A stretch of DNA of 64,000 nt from Pseudomonadota bacterium (GTDB taxonomy: Bacteria > Pseudomonadota > Alphaproteobacteria > Sphingomonadales > Sphingomonadaceae), in assembly GCA_021849075.1 (NCBI GenBank), contig JAJZTH010000006.1:53122-117121 (forward strand). Reading direction: 5' to 3'. Of this stretch, positions 8,666 through 62,411 are shown piece by piece. The position numbers were made by a program, and so were the translations under genes. Every line of letters starts with the position of its first letter. Positions within the stretch are counted from its first letter, which is position 1. A model generated the notes under the pieces. The model was not told the DNA's origin and made no database searches. It was given only the letters and a program-made list of their open reading frames with translations.

Positions 8666-11182
8666 TCAAGAGTGCCGCCGCGCATCCGCATTTTTGGTGC
8701 GCAATGTGGCGCTGGCGCTGGCCGGATCGTCGGGCCAGGGATGGCGCGGGTATCGACCGCGCATTTCCTTCGCCACATCGCGCCAGTTGCCCGCCCAAAA
8801 TCCGGGCAGGTCGCGCGTCGTCTGGATCGGCCGTCCGGCCGGCGAGGTCAGCGACAGGACCAGCGGAATGCGCTGATTGCCCACGGTGGGATGCTGCGAC
8901 AGGCCGAACAGCGCCTGCACCCGCAATTCCACGCGCGGTCCGCCCTCGGCCGCATAATCGATCGCATGGCTGCTGCCGGCGGGCGACCGGAAATCGGGCG
9001 GGGCCAGCCGGTCGAGCTGGCTCTTGCCGTCCCAGCCGATAATCCCCTCCAGCACGCCCGACAGTTGCGACCGGTCGATGTCGGACAGTTTGCGCTTGCC
9101 CGTCAGCAACGATGGCAGCCATTCGTCCAGCGTCCCGATCAGCGCCGCATCGGACAGCGCCTCCAACCCGGCAAACTGTCCCCGCATCCGCAGTGATTGC
9201 GCCGCTTCCGACCATGGCAGCAGCGACAGGCCGCCCTGCCGCACGCCTTCCGTCAGCGCGGCAACCACGGCATCGGGATCGGGCTTGTCATCCGACCCGG
9301 ACGACAGCCGCACCGCGCCCAGCCGCCGTTCGCGCAGCGCCTCGATCCCGCCATTGGTCGGCCGGAACTTCACCGTGCGATGCTCGGCGATCCGTGCCCC
9401 GAACAAAGCGATGACGTCGGCTTCATCGATCGGCGCAGCGGACAAGATGCGCGCGCCCGCTGCGCTGCCCTGTACCTCGCCCACCGCCAGCCATTGCTCG
9501 CGCGTCAGCGGCGACAGCGGATCAAGCCGAAACCCGCGCCCGCCCACACTCGTCCAGTCCGCGCCATCGGCCGATCGCCGCTTGGCCACCCGATCGGGGA
9601 AGGCGAGGGCGAGGCAGATGCCAACCTTATTTTCTCCCCTCCCTTCCAGGGAGGGGGCGGGGGTGGGTGGCGAGCGTAGCGAGCCTCCTGCGGAGGCACC
9701 CACCCCCAACCCCTCCCTAGGAGGGAGGGGCTTAATTAAAGTCGCCCACCGTTTCGCCAGCCCCCGCGCCGCATCCGCGCGCTTGCCGCTTTCCCGCCGC
9801 CAGCGCTGCCGCCGCAGCGTCAGATCGGTGTCCTGCCCGCCAATCCCGCGCTCGCCCAGCAGCACCGCGACCTCGGCCGCCACCTCCGCCAACCCCATTT
9901 CCCCCGCGCGCACCAGCATATGGGCGATGCGCGGGGACAGCGGCAGCTTCGCCAGTGTTTTCCCATGCGGCGTAATCCGTCCACCCGCGTCCAGTGCCTC
10001 CAGCACGGTCAGCCGCCCGCGAGCTTCCTCCACCGCCGCCGCCGGCGGCGCATCCAGCCAGCGCAGCGCGCCCGGATCGCTCACCCCCCAAAGGGCGCAA
10101 TCGAGCAGCAGGCTGCTGAGGTCGCTTTCCAATATCTCCGGCGGGTCGAATGGCGGCATCCCCGCGCTCGCGGCGGCCTCCCACAATCGATAGGCGACGC
10201 CCGGCCGCTGCCGTGCCGCACGCCCTGCGCGCTGGGTCGCCGACGCCTGACTGGCCCGTTCCGTCACCAGTCGCGTCACGCCGGCCGCCCGGTCATATCG
10301 CGGCCGCCGCGCCAGGCCGCTATCCACCACGATCCGCACGCCATCAATGGTCAGGCTGGTTTCCGCAATCGATGTGGCAAGGATGACCTTGCGCCGCCCC
10401 TCGCGCGAAGGCCGGATCGCCGCCCGCTGCGCGCCGGGGTCCAGCGAACCATGCAGCATATGCACTTCGATCGGCCCACCTTCGATCCGCTCCGCCGTCC
10501 GCTCAATCTCCCGCACGCCGGGCAGGAAGGCGAGCAGATCGCCCTCGGCTTCCTCGGTCAGCGCCCGGCGGATCGCCGCCGCCATCTCATCCTCGATCTT
10601 CTTTTCCGATGCCCGACCGATATGGCGCAATTCCAGCGGCTGGATGCGCCCCGCGCTCTCGATCACCGGCGCGCCATTAAGCAGCGTGGCAAAGCGCGCG
10701 CCGTCCAACGTCGCAGACATCGGCACGATCCGAAGGTCCGGCCGCAAAGCCTCCTGCGCATCCAGCGCCAGCGCCAGCCCGAAATCGCTGTCCAGGCTGC
10801 GCTCATGCACTTCGTCGAACAGCACGGCGGACACGCCCGCCAGTTCCGGGTCATCCTGTATCCGCCGCACGAAAATGCCCTCGGTCAGCACCAGCAGCCG
10901 CGTGCGCGCCGAAACCTTGCTGTCCATTCGCGTCGCATAGCCGACGGTGCCGCCCGGCTGCTCGCCCATCATCTCAGCGATCCGCTCGGCCGCCGCCCGC
11001 GCCGCCAGCCTGCGCGGCGACAGCAACAGCACCTGTCCCTCGCACCATGGCTCGTTCAGCAGGGCAGGGGCCACCGCCGTCGTCTTCCCCGCGCCCGGCG
11101 GCGCCACCAGCACGGTATTGCTCCCCGCCCGCAACGCGGCAAGCAGGTCGGGCAGCACGGCATATATCGGCAGGTCGGTCAT
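8666..11182 (-). CDS. hrpB: ATP-dependent helicase HrpB, with an in-frame palindromic repeat insertion
   Basis: 838 residues. DExH-box helicase of the HrpB family. Walker A APPGAGKTT lies near residues 27-35, the DEVH box in LFDEVHERSLDSDFG near 120, and motif VI in QRAGRAARQRPG near 310. The C-terminal HrpB domain is complete. Residues about 481-519 are unlike the family: they read LPPREGLGVGASAGGSL and onward and are encoded by an inverted repeat (9637-9732), inserted without breaking the frame. The start at 11182 (MTDLPIY) replaces a longer frame beginning at 11218. The physiological role of HrpB is poorly known. Confidence 0.9.
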   Translation of the reverse strand: MTDLPIYAVLPDLLAALRAGSNTVLVAPPGAGKTTAVAPALLNEPWCEGQVLLLSPRRLAARAAAERIAEMMGEQPGGTVGYATRMDSKVSARTRLLVLTEGIFVRRIQDDPELAGVSAVLFDEVHERSLDSDFGLALALDAQEALRPDLRIVPMSATLDGARFATLLNGAPVIESAGRIQPLELRHIGRASEKKIEDEMAAAIRRALTEEAEGDLLAFLPGVREIERTAERIEGGPIEVHMLHGSLDPGAQRAAIRPSREGRRKVILATSIAETSLTIDGVRIVVDSGLARRPRYDRAAGVTRLVTERASQASATQRAGRAARQRPGVAYRLWEAAASAGMPPFDPPEILESDLSSLLLDCALWGVSDPGALRWLDAPPAAAVEEARGRLTVLEALDAGGRITPHGKTLAKLPLSPRIAHMLVRAGEMGLAEVAAEVAVLLGERGIGGQDTDLTLRRQRWRRESGKRADAARGLAKRWATLIKPLPPREGLGVGASAGGSLRSPPTPAPSLEGRGENKVGICLALAFPDRVAKRRSADGADWTSVGGRGFRLDPLSPLTREQWLAVGEVQGSAAGARILSAAPIDEADVIALFGARIAEHRTVKFRPTNGGIEALRERRLGAVRLSSGSDDKPDPDAVVAALTEGVRQGGLSLLPWSEAAQSLRMRGQFAGLEALSDAALIGTLDEWLPSLLTGKRKLSDIDRSQLSGVLEGIIGWDGKSQLDRLAPPDFRSPAGSSHAIDYAAEGGPRVELRVQALFGLSQHPTVGNQRIPLVLSLTSPAGRPIQTTRDLPGFWAGNWRDVAKEMRGRYPRHPWPDDPASASATLRTKNADARRHS
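9637..9732. repeat. Large palindromic element inside hrpB
   Basis: A left arm of about 34 nt (CCCCTCCCTTCCAGGGAGG and onward to GGGGGTGGGTG) and a right arm ending at 9732 are inverted complements with few mismatches; a loop of roughly 25 nt separates them. Each arm also holds a small palindrome (CTCCCT...AGGGAG). The element reads as open frame in the hrpB direction and encodes about 39 Pro/Gly-rich residues. Confidence 0.85.
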
Positions 11183-11336
11183 GGCGCTTCCTCTCGCGCC
11201 AATCGGATCGAAGCGCAAGGAGGTGGAGGCCGGGGAATGCGCTTGCCGGCGTCGCTTGTGCCTGTCCTATCCACCCGGCCTTTGCTCTACCTTCGGCGAT
11301 GCCGCACCTTTCCCTCGCTTCACAGCGTTCCGCTCC

Positions 11337-11466
11337 TTGGCGCGCACCTGCCGCGCCGCTGTCTTCAACCTGTCGCCTATCTGTCGCGCACCTGTCGCCT
11401 TACCGGCGCGTCGCTGTCGCCTTTCTGTCGCAAAAACCCGAAAATGGCCGACGACACTGTGAACTT
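11337..11466 (+). repeat. 11-bp periodic CTGTCGC array with conserved tail box (element 1)
   Basis: In the 329-bp gap between hrpB and the TauE gene, CTGTCGC occurs exactly at 11370, 11381, 11392, 11414 and 11425. Degenerate copies fill the intermediate phase: TTGGCGC at 11337, CTGCCGC at 11348, CTGTCTT at 11359 and CCGGCGC at 11403. The four bases between copies vary. The box CGACACTGTGAACTT follows at 11452-11466, 27 nt after the start of the last exact copy. A period of 11 is not a multiple of 3, so the array is not coding. A second element with the same design is at 61976-62138. Confidence 0.85.
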
Positions 11467-11511
11467 CGTAGGAAATGGCGGCAGTCGCATCATGCGCGAC
11501 CCGCAACCCGC

Positions 11512-12291
11512 TTATCCGAACAGATAGATGTGGATCGGGTTTTTCGGGTCCAGCAGCATCTTGGCCGTCAGCGCCAGCGACATGATGATCAGCAGCGGCT
11601 TGATCAGGCGCGATCCAAAGCGCATCGCCAGATGCGATCCGACCTGTCCGCCAGTGATGCTGCCCACCGCCATGGCCAGGCCCGCGATCCAGATCACATG
11701 CCCGCCCGCGATCATCGTCAGCAGGCCCGCGACATTGCTGGCGAAATTGGCCGCCTTGGTCTGGGCCGTGGCGCGCAGGATGGAAAGCCCGCCCAGCGCC
11801 AGAAAGATGGTGGTGTAGAAAGCGCCCGCGCCCGGCCCGAAAAAGCCGTCATAAAATCCCACCACGCCGATCAGGCCGGACATGCCCGCCATGCCGATGC
11901 GCGCGTGGCGATCCGCGTCGCTCAGCTTGGGGGAGAAGGTGAAATAGGCGGCCATCGCCACCAGCAGCGCAGGCATCAGCCCCGCCAGGATCGATGGATC
12001 GACCCGCTGCAACAGCCATGCCCCGCCCACCGATCCGATGAAGGCGGCGGCGATCGGCGCCCTGAACGTCTTCAAATCCATATGCCCGCGCCGGGCATAG
12101 GCGATGCATGCGCCAAATGTGCCCATGCAACTTTGCAGCTTGTTGGTCGCCACCGCCGGCACCGGCGGCACACCTGCCGCCAGCAGCGCGGGCAGGGCAA
12201 TGAGGCCCCCGCCGCCCGCCATCGCGTCGACGCACCCGGCCATGAAGGCCGCAGCCATAAGGAAAGCGATGATTTCGGGGGACAGGATCAT
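11512..12291 (-). CDS. TauE/SafE family membrane permease
   Basis: 259 residues with about eight hydrophobic segments. It belongs to the TauE/SafE (DUF81) family, proposed sulfite, sulfoacetate or organosulfur exporters in the inner membrane. The N-terminal repeat MAGCVDAMAGGGGLIALPALL and the second-half repeat with FYDGFFGPGAGAFYTT are the paired glycine-rich signatures of the family. No sulfur gene adjoins it, so the substrate is unknown. It precedes hrpB on the same strand but is separated from it by the 11-bp periodic array. Confidence 0.88.
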   Translation of the reverse strand: MILSPEIIAFLMAAAFMAGCVDAMAGGGGLIALPALLAAGVPPVPAVATNKLQSCMGTFGACIAYARRGHMDLKTFRAPIAAAFIGSVGGAWLLQRVDPSILAGLMPALLVAMAAYFTFSPKLSDADRHARIGMAGMSGLIGVVGFYDGFFGPGAGAFYTTIFLALGGLSILRATAQTKAANFASNVAGLLTMIAGGHVIWIAGLAMAVGSITGGQVGSHLAMRFGSRLIKPLLIIMSLALTAKMLLDPKNPIHIYLFG

Positions 12292-61408: not shown

Positions 61409-61948
61409 ATGAAGAGAGCGATGAAGATGGTTCCGGCGGCGCTGACCCCGGCGATGCTGTTGTTGGCGGGGTGTGTGACCGACCGGGAGAAGGTGGAACT
61501 GGAGCCGCCGGTCCGGGCGGGCGACACGATCCGCTTCACCGCCGGCCGCTGCTTTGGCGCCTGTCCCGCCTATACGTTGCGGGTGACGCCCGATGGCTCC
61601 GGCCTGCTGGAGCCAGAGCGCTTCACCGCCGTTCCCGGCCCGACCCGCTTCACCGTCAGCGCCGCGCAATATCGGCGGCTCCGCACTGCCCTTGGCCCCT
61701 ATAAGCCAGTGGCGGGAACGACCAAGCGCATCGGCAATGGTGAAAATTGCACCCGCTTCGCGACCGACATGCCCGCCTATACGATCGAATGGACGCGCGA
61801 TGGAGGGAAGAATGGGCCGAAGCCGACCCGGCTGGATTTCCAGTCGGGCTGCATGGACAGCCGCTATGCCCGGCTGCGCACGACGATTGGAGCGATCCCC
61901 AAGATGCTGGCAATCGAACCGATGTTGAAGCCCAAGCCAGCGAGCTGA
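61409..61948 (+). CDS. DUF6438 domain lipoprotein
   Basis: 179 residues. Lipoprotein signal with MLLLAGC (Cys22). The core IRFTAGRCFGACPAYTLRVTPDGSG and FTVSAAQYRRLRTALGPY matches my memory of DUF6438, a small periplasmic domain with two conserved Cys in CFGACP. Function unknown. Divergent from rph. The second 11-bp periodic array begins 27 nt past its stop. Confidence 0.75.
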   Translation: MKRAMKMVPAALTPAMLLLAGCVTDREKVELEPPVRAGDTIRFTAGRCFGACPAYTLRVTPDGSGLLEPERFTAVPGPTRFTVSAAQYRRLRTALGPYKPVAGTTKRIGNGENCTRFATDMPAYTIEWTRDGGKNGPKPTRLDFQSGCMDSRYARLRTTIGAIPKMLAIEPMLKPKPAS

Positions 61949-61975
61949 ACTGGGCCACAGCGACGCGACAGTTGA

Positions 61976-62138
61976 AAGTTCATAGTGTCGCGAGGGTGAA
62001 TTGCGCCGATTTCGCCCTGATGCGACCGTTACGCGACAGCGAAGCGACGGAGTCGCGACATTCGGATAACGCTGACGCGACAACGGCGCGCCTGTGGCGC
62101 GACACAGAGGCGACAGGGAAGCGACCGCGACGCAACGG
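61976..62138 (-). repeat. 11-bp periodic GCGACNG array with conserved tail box (element 2)
   Basis: Read on the plus strand, GCGACNN starts at 62022, 62033, 62044, 62055, 62077, 62099, 62110 and 62121, all multiples of 11 apart; GCAACGG at 62132 and GCGCCTG at 62088 fit the phase, and 62066 is lost. The complement of the tail box, CGACACTATGAACTT, lies at 61976-61990, 38 nt before the nearest unit, i.e. one unit further than in element 1 (27 nt). It occupies most of the 477-bp gap between DUF6438 and the polytopic protein; the remainder shows no gene. Confidence 0.85.
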
Positions 62139-62411
62139 CTTTGCGCGCGGGGCGGGGGGCATGTCGTGGCGGACAGGGGCGGCCGGTTTCATCATGCAGG
62201 GTAGATCAAAAGATTGGCGCGTAGGACAGGGATGGCTCTGATCGCCATATAGTGATCATGCGGTCGGCTCGCTCCGCCTGCCGCCCTCTATCGCCTTGAT
62301 TCAAGGCCGAGTATCGGCGCAGATCAACTTTCAGCCCCGGCCTTCATGGATGGGTGCAATGTCCATCATAATGGAATTTAAAGGGAATTGTGCGAAGCGC
62401 GGGTAGGAATA

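Follow-up and report, generated by a model that had tools for sequence, protein, structure and literature searches.

The hrpB-tauE gap and its element

The window, meaning the whole 64-kb stretch of DNA analysed here, carries a composite element on the plus strand of the gap between hrpB and tauE. It opens with a promoter-like box, which ends at an ATG; a short leader then passes into an array of TGTCGC-N5 units, and an A-rich linker separates this array from a core, CGACACTGTGAACTTC. Positions 61975-62229 are occupied by another element, on the opposite strand, with its parts in the same order. The individual features are as follows.

11262..11301, plus strand: promoter-like box CTGTCCTATCCACCCGGCCTTTGCTCTACCTTCGGCGATG, ending at the ATG; a putative promoter, of the box type that stands before the start codon of an HTH gene in relatives
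11299..11347, plus strand: leader, from the ATG to the clear repeat units, overlapping the first degenerate unit; copies with an HTH gene start that gene here
11337..11431, plus strand: array of nine 11-bp grid units, five with exact CTGTCGC
11337, 11348, 11359 and 11403, plus strand: degenerate grid units TTGGCGC (5/7), CTGCCGC (6/7), CTGTCTT (5/7) and CCGGCGC (5/7), respectively
11432..11451, plus strand: A-rich linker AAAAACCCGAAAATGGCCGA, separating array from core
11452..11467, plus strand: core CGACACTGTGAACTTC, with the stop codon of tauE 45 bp away; the consensus was built on 76 distinct cores
62193..62229, minus strand: promoter-like box CTGTCCTACGCGCCAATCTTTTGATCTACCCTGCATG of the second element
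62022..62137, minus strand: array of 11 grid units of the TGTCGC type, with orthologous arrays in G074 (L569) and G092 (L127)
61975..61990, minus strand: core CGACACTATGAACTTT, 27 bp from the stop of a plus-strand gene ending at 61948
61960..61971, minus strand: CTGTCGCGTCGC, behind the core of the second element; many other cores have CTGTCGCGTC behind them

The first-pass annotation of this DNA had reported five exact copies of CTGTCGC and four degenerate ones on a common 11-bp grid, separated by variable 4-mers, and this description proved accurate, with the exact plus-strand copies starting at 11370, 11381, 11392, 11414 and 11425. The heptamer occurs 34 times in the window versus 14.2 ± 3.2 times in shuffled sequence, and none of 100 shuffles reaches 34. 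Its phasing also exceeds that of shuffled sequence. Specifically, the largest number of in-phase copies of any heptamer (period 8-22 bp, within 70 bp) is five in the window, and 60 dinucleotide shuffles of the whole window gave two (46 times) or three (14 times), never more. The core at 11452-11467, the box at 11262-11301 and the second array at 62022-62137 extend that annotation, and searches of an open-access library listed no published description of the element.

What finds no support is the view of the array as a feature of the hrpB-tauE gap. Among 13 orthologous gaps with both flanks present, only three contain an array, namely those of the window's own genome, of G080, where it has decayed, and of G092, where a core-less remnant is left; the element is absent from the other ten. 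The array belongs to a dispersed family that is attached to a gene. The gap itself (L086-L114) is highly variable across species, measuring ~50 bp in some and holding other sequence or genes elsewhere. The counterparts of the second element in G074 and G092 lie at the same gene end and retain all parts. In the window's genome, a core-like CAACGGTGTGAACTTCG without an array was also seen between apparent groES and groEL genes and behind an apparent hsp20 gene (L061/L064 loci).

A dispersed family with a conserved register

The elements form a dispersed family in the Sphingobium group, in which complete copies carry a gene. A search of related genomes of the kind the first-pass annotation had proposed recovered the pattern TGTCGC-N5-TGTCGC-N5-TGTCGC in 16 of 94 genus genomes, with up to 19 matches per genome, and its reversed control in none of the 94. 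In the family sample, the same pattern is present in three of 249 genomes, namely the window's own, G334 (five matches) and G321 (one core-less match), in a search that used exact copies and that degenerate arrays escape. The arrays span ~40-140 bp.

The unit statistics draw on 59 distinct arrays with 519 grid units, from the genus and G334, with L078 left out. Information content is 1.45-1.79 bits at unit positions 2 and 4-6 and 0.24-0.88 bits at the spacer positions, and 217 of the 229 next-copy distances of up to 60 bp are multiples of 11. Comparison of orthologous arrays shows differences at 78 of 1834 hexamer sites (4.3%) and at 326 of 1460 spacer sites (22.3%); most loci in both the unit and the substitution statistics were found via exact copies, which tilts the figures towards the hexamer. 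Across the 13 groups of orthologous arrays, units are gained and lost in steps of 11 bp. The helical register is thus kept, as had been suspected from the single array.

These data also bear on the simplest reading, that of a plain minisatellite or of chance phasing. Bacterial arrays from beyond the sphingomonads are of two kinds, some having varied spacers and others the identical spacers that tandem duplication would yield. Against it stand the varied spacers of the Sphingobium arrays, the shuffle tests, the reversed pattern being absent from all 94 genomes, the constant flanking parts and the substitutions that spare the hexamer. For the Sphingobium arrays this reading is refuted, and the probability left to it overall is negligible.

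A small HTH gene in front of the array

In relatives, the box stands before a small HTH gene (~95 residues), which is apparently leaderless, and the array and core lie behind that gene. When nine genomes were scanned for the box, four of them yielded a total of 23 sites, of which 21 were read; L464 has the HTH gene straight after the box, and the rest lead into units and core. Of ten arrays without a nearby box, seven begin 1-43 nt behind the stop of an HTH gene and three behind another gene.

Eight aligned HTH proteins served as a profile for searching the 94 genus genomes, with at least 89 bits defining a strong match. Strong matches occur in 39 of the 94 genomes, among the matches listed, and in 15 of the 16 array genomes (P=3.1e-6, a statistic that ignores relatedness). 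The exception is the window's own genome (assembly 95.6% complete), where no strong match was found, the best reaching 53.6 bits; an array is absent behind each of the three distant HTH paralogs read there.

Loci were returned for 30 of the 75 listed matches of at least 89 bits. The parsed set comprises 29 distinct HTH genes from 33 loci, with L487 (in-frame stop) and L489 unparsed and with L503 and L146 repeating the proteins of L502 and L485. In all 29, the box ends at the start codon, units lie behind the stop and the core follows 71-226 nt past the stop. Exact TGTCGC occurs 3.17 times per 260 nt behind these genes, compared with 0.15 upstream of them and 0.20 in the window at large, and GAACTT is found on the array strand in 29 of 29 and on the other strand in none (expected background 0.04). 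The 22 genes that did not seed the profile all have the box, units (3-13 per 260 nt) and GAACTT. At these loci, 36 of 36 distances between exact TGTCGC pairs are multiples of 11, as are 161 of 241 between pairs of degenerate units; five of the 22 have degenerate units only. Six further strong-match loci all have the core; in several of them (L608, L613), the units are sparse or depart from the 11-bp step.

Outside the genus, strong profile matches in the family sample are confined to G231 and G334. The HTH gene of G334 has its start codon at the box and is accompanied by ten units and a variant core, AACACTAAACTTC; units also lie behind the gene in G231. Since G334 is the very genome with five array matches, it provides a test of the profile-array prediction outside the genus. 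Five weaker paralogs are longer (~200-280 residues); four of them have a box of the TTTCCTAC or TGTCCTAC type at their start, and two of the five have TGTCAACTTCG twice behind the stop, where an array is absent. In G004, one copy of the HTH gene (L487) has an in-frame TGA, with array and core still behind it. Several HTH loci adjoin an apparent ABC transporter gene, as judged by eye.

At many array loci, the gene itself is missing, and the box, the ATG and a short leader that reads like the start of the HTH gene (MEQ, MDQ and so on) pass directly into the array. No reading frame is conserved in the leader, as the distance from ATG to core spans all three frames across elements, so the gene-less copies are not genes; protein coding through the array is ruled out on the same grounds. 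Gene-less copies recur at orthologous places across species, one of them in five genomes and others in four or three. Both copies in the window look like gene-less derivatives.

A rival suggestion is that the array acts as RNA, in a 3' UTR or small RNA; with a pyrimidine-C step recurring every 11 nt, it could for instance load Rho and terminate transcription between convergent genes. The elements do sit at gene 3' ends: for 37 of 58 loci, simple ORF calls put the next gene past the core on the opposite strand, 31 times within 100 bp of the core; the same calls placed an ORF over the array itself at 25 of the 58. Most arrays also have a promoter-like box in front of them, a loose pattern finding one at 49 of 58 loci. 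Yet the hexamer is stricter than a pyrimidine-C step requires, and Rfam gave nothing at gathering score for window positions 11180-11600, the best match having an E of 0.21, below the cut-off. An alifold analysis gave no structure at the core and none in shuffled controls either, which makes it a test of little power. The attachment of an HTH gene to the array suggests a role at the DNA level, and an RNA function appears improbable.

What the HTH protein resembles

By sequence, the protein most resembles phage terminase small subunits. All four diverse members scanned match the PHROGs terminase small subunit family phrog_4044 (E 1.4e-7 to 1.7e-6), and Pfam, scanned with one member, gave sub-threshold matches only (E 0.004-0.026), Terminase_2 among them at 0.026. 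The structure model consists of three HTH helices and a fourth, long helix (mean pLDDT 76.5). Structure searches of the PDB and a viral library gave nothing at an E of 0.001 or below; the top match in the viral library is a terminase small subunit, with a weak E of 8e-3, and unrelated SANT domains score above the Sf6 terminase (Z 6.5 vs 5.8). A sequence-profile search of the PDB produced nothing convincing (best E 0.16), no PADLOC family matched, and no ring-forming or oligomerisation domain is obvious in the protein.

The same hexamer in phages and distant phyla

A broad contig scan extends the motif well beyond the sphingomonads; the taxa named here are those among the matches listed, and the reversed control covered viral contigs. 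Four copies at 11-bp spacing occur in 51 viral stretches versus one for the reversed hexamer, and in 23 at 10-bp spacing. Of 42 viral loci read, 24 have an ORF that spans the array, and seven of seven array-spanning proteins scanned match PHROG families of DnaD-like helicase loaders or O-like initiators. At L294, L364, L427, L414, L428, L420, L424, L298, L313 and L329, the array lies in the coding region of initiator-like phage genes, behind the wHTH and often beside a Lys/Asn-rich linker. The arrays in such genes are probably origin iterons. At L371, L363, L419 and L425, a phage exonuclease gene (for L371, phrog_298) ends 5 nt before the start of an array.

The viral arrays raise the question whether the chromosomal ones, too, are replication-origin iterons bound by a phage-like initiator, and thus satellite origins or decoys that titrate phage initiators. 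Both the excess of viral four-copy stretches over the reversed control and the DnaD-like or O-like nature of the spanning proteins speak for this. In the Sphingobium group, however, the array sits behind the stop of the small HTH gene in 29 of 29 cases and not inside an initiator, loci persist at the same gene ends from species to species, and one HTH protein sequence tried against plasmid (72,556) and phage (50,697) records had no match. An origin function is therefore regarded as unlikely.

Other bacterial arrays adjoin other genes. In Clostridia, Bacilli and Bacteroidales, arrays stand 2-10 nt behind the stops of AlbA_2/COG2865-type genes, and in Collinsella an array lies 64 bp from such a gene; these assignments were checked with Pfam for L158, L221 and L204 and made by eye for L194 and L212. 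At L213 and L214, the array follows only a wHTH-like tail. As the partner of the Sphingobium-group array, AlbA_2/COG2865 was rejected, for PF04326 is present in 19 of 94 genus genomes and, among the 16 array genomes, only in G004. The occurrence of arrays in or behind genes of unrelated DNA-binding proteins means that the hexamer alone does not indicate one family.

A member of the Dehalococcoidia, G338 (OY282365.1), has 162 three-copy matches and no control match. Read by eye, an element there starts with a sigma-70-like promoter and an ATG, continues as an array and closes with the end sequence CGACACTTTCG. The promoter occurs 112 times, most copies read (L509-L558) carry arrays, and the array units are of the types TGTCGCA, TGTCACA, TGTCAGA and TGTCGGA. 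The end is TGCGACAC in 17 of 19 copies; it fits the array unit of its own copy in only four of 12 (a fifth in part) and is thus not counted as covariation. No complete HTH gene was recognised by eye at 54 promoter matches, in which overlapping loci are counted twice. The Dehalococcoidia and sphingomonad elements may share descent or may have converged. In addition, an alphaproteobacterial MAG labelled Asaia bogorensis (G339, CAMDLT; L173, L176, L189, L200, L211, L231) has 31 three-copy matches and no control match, and the loci read there have no common adjacent gene.

With so many promoter copies of a similar unit in one genome, and with elements that are dispersed, gene-less and ordered in their architecture, a strict mobile element deserves consideration, that is, an IS or MITE with terminal repeats and a transposase acting in trans, for which the array would supply the binding sites at one end. 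NCBIfam adds weak likenesses to transposase HTHs, those of IS481 and IS630 for one HTH protein and that of IS3 for a second (E 0.025-0.034, far short of the cut-offs). Still, the box and core are not mutual inverted repeats, as judged by eye, many copies occupy the same place across species, and no target duplication was established, the insertion points not being exactly placeable. Nor did an unsystematic look reveal a transposase near complete modules or any sign of copying at target sites. This reading is accordingly given little chance. Transposon ends, which the arrays in many phyla had suggested, were also considered and rejected, as 18 loci show no clear paired inverted arrays.

A model of the module and its relation to known systems

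The available data are best explained by a model in which the array provides the iterons of a small HTH-gene module, its units being predicted binding sites, and the gene-less copies derive from complete modules; we regard this as probable. A complete module comprises the promoter-like box, the apparently leaderless gene for a ~95-residue HTH protein similar to the DNA-binding domain of phage terminase small subunits, the 11-bp TGTCGC array, the linker and the TGTGAACTTC core. The protein would bind one array unit per helical turn, so that neighbouring molecules would either align on one face of the DNA or form a ring around which the DNA is wrapped. Of the first-pass interpretation, the conserved register holds and a side-by-side protein is still what would explain it best; the tie to the hrpB-tauE gap finds no support.

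A ring or filament of the HTH protein on the array is the favoured form of this model because of what is proposed for terminases. According to the accessible part of one study, neighbouring HTHs of a terminase small-subunit ring are spaced by roughly one turn of B-DNA, and segments of ~100 bp suit wrapping (PMC4737164), a length within the span of the arrays. The same text adds that the ring-wrapping mode may not hold for all pac phages. Gene loss from complete copies would have produced gene-less copies, which would then have been copied to new places and kept, in a relation resembling that of REPINs to their RAYT gene. These may serve as extra wrapping sites, maintained by selection or by dynamics of the type modelled for REPINs (PMC8049555), and candidate roles of the bound complex include regulation of its own gene, titration and local DNA architecture at gene ends.

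A more far-reaching reading is offered tentatively. TGTC-type iterons one turn apart could form a code, reused widely, by which DNA is wrapped on HTH assemblies. Sphingomonads would then possess a chromosomal terminase-small-subunit-like protein with its own pac-like array and genome-wide gene-less wrapping sites at gene ends, and a similar architecture of promoter, ATG, array and inverted end would have arisen separately or spread in Dehalococcoidia, which together would amount to a new class of chromosomal element.

With these findings, an odd repeat becomes a protein-DNA pair open to testing, in which the protein has ~95 residues and the register of the site is known. Once binding were confirmed, the pair would offer a compact model of cooperative, helically phased DNA wrapping, as well as an example of a chromosomal repeat population kept with no transposase known so far. 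One common hexamer, moreover, connects phage origins, packaging-type HTHs and dispersed chromosomal repeats.

Among known systems, the terminase small subunits and pac sites of SPP1, SF6 and Sf6 come close in that an HTH gene has repeats in or beside it, and the PHROG match points the same way; the wrapping of ~100 bp on HTHs one turn apart, as proposed in the accessible portion of PMC4737164, is a further likeness. The SF6 domain, however, binds with little sequence specificity according to that portion (PMC4737164), whereas the hexamer is strictly kept here. SPP1 pac spans promoters and the gene start, whereas the present array lies behind the stop. Dispersed gene-less copies also set the elements apart from terminase and pac, and no phage genes were noticed at the loci in an unsystematic look.

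RAYTs are HuH (Y1) transposases, and REPINs are paired hairpins. The present elements differ in having only an HTH protein and direct repeats; no HuH/Y1 transposase domain was present in scans with Pfam (one member) or with PHROGs and NCBIfam (four members). What is shared with REPIN-RAYT systems, as far as the accessible part of PMC8049555 describes them, is a small gene with attached repeats together with persisting gene-less copies. The gene-less copies described here are dispersed and persistent, with orthologous copies in up to five genomes.

Iterons inside phage replication-initiator genes of the lambda O type are similar, for in phage O-like and DnaD-like genes the hexamer is likewise repeated directly with an 11-bp period. 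Those iterons lie in the coding region by an A+T-rich stretch, whereas the present ones lie outside the gene and end in a TGTGAACTTC core. ParR-parC and omega centromere arrays are tandem short sites served by small ribbon-helix-helix proteins, on plasmids with a motor gene. They share with the present module the tandem short sites and a small protein that probably binds them, and they differ from it in that this module pairs its sites with an HTH protein and resides on the chromosome.
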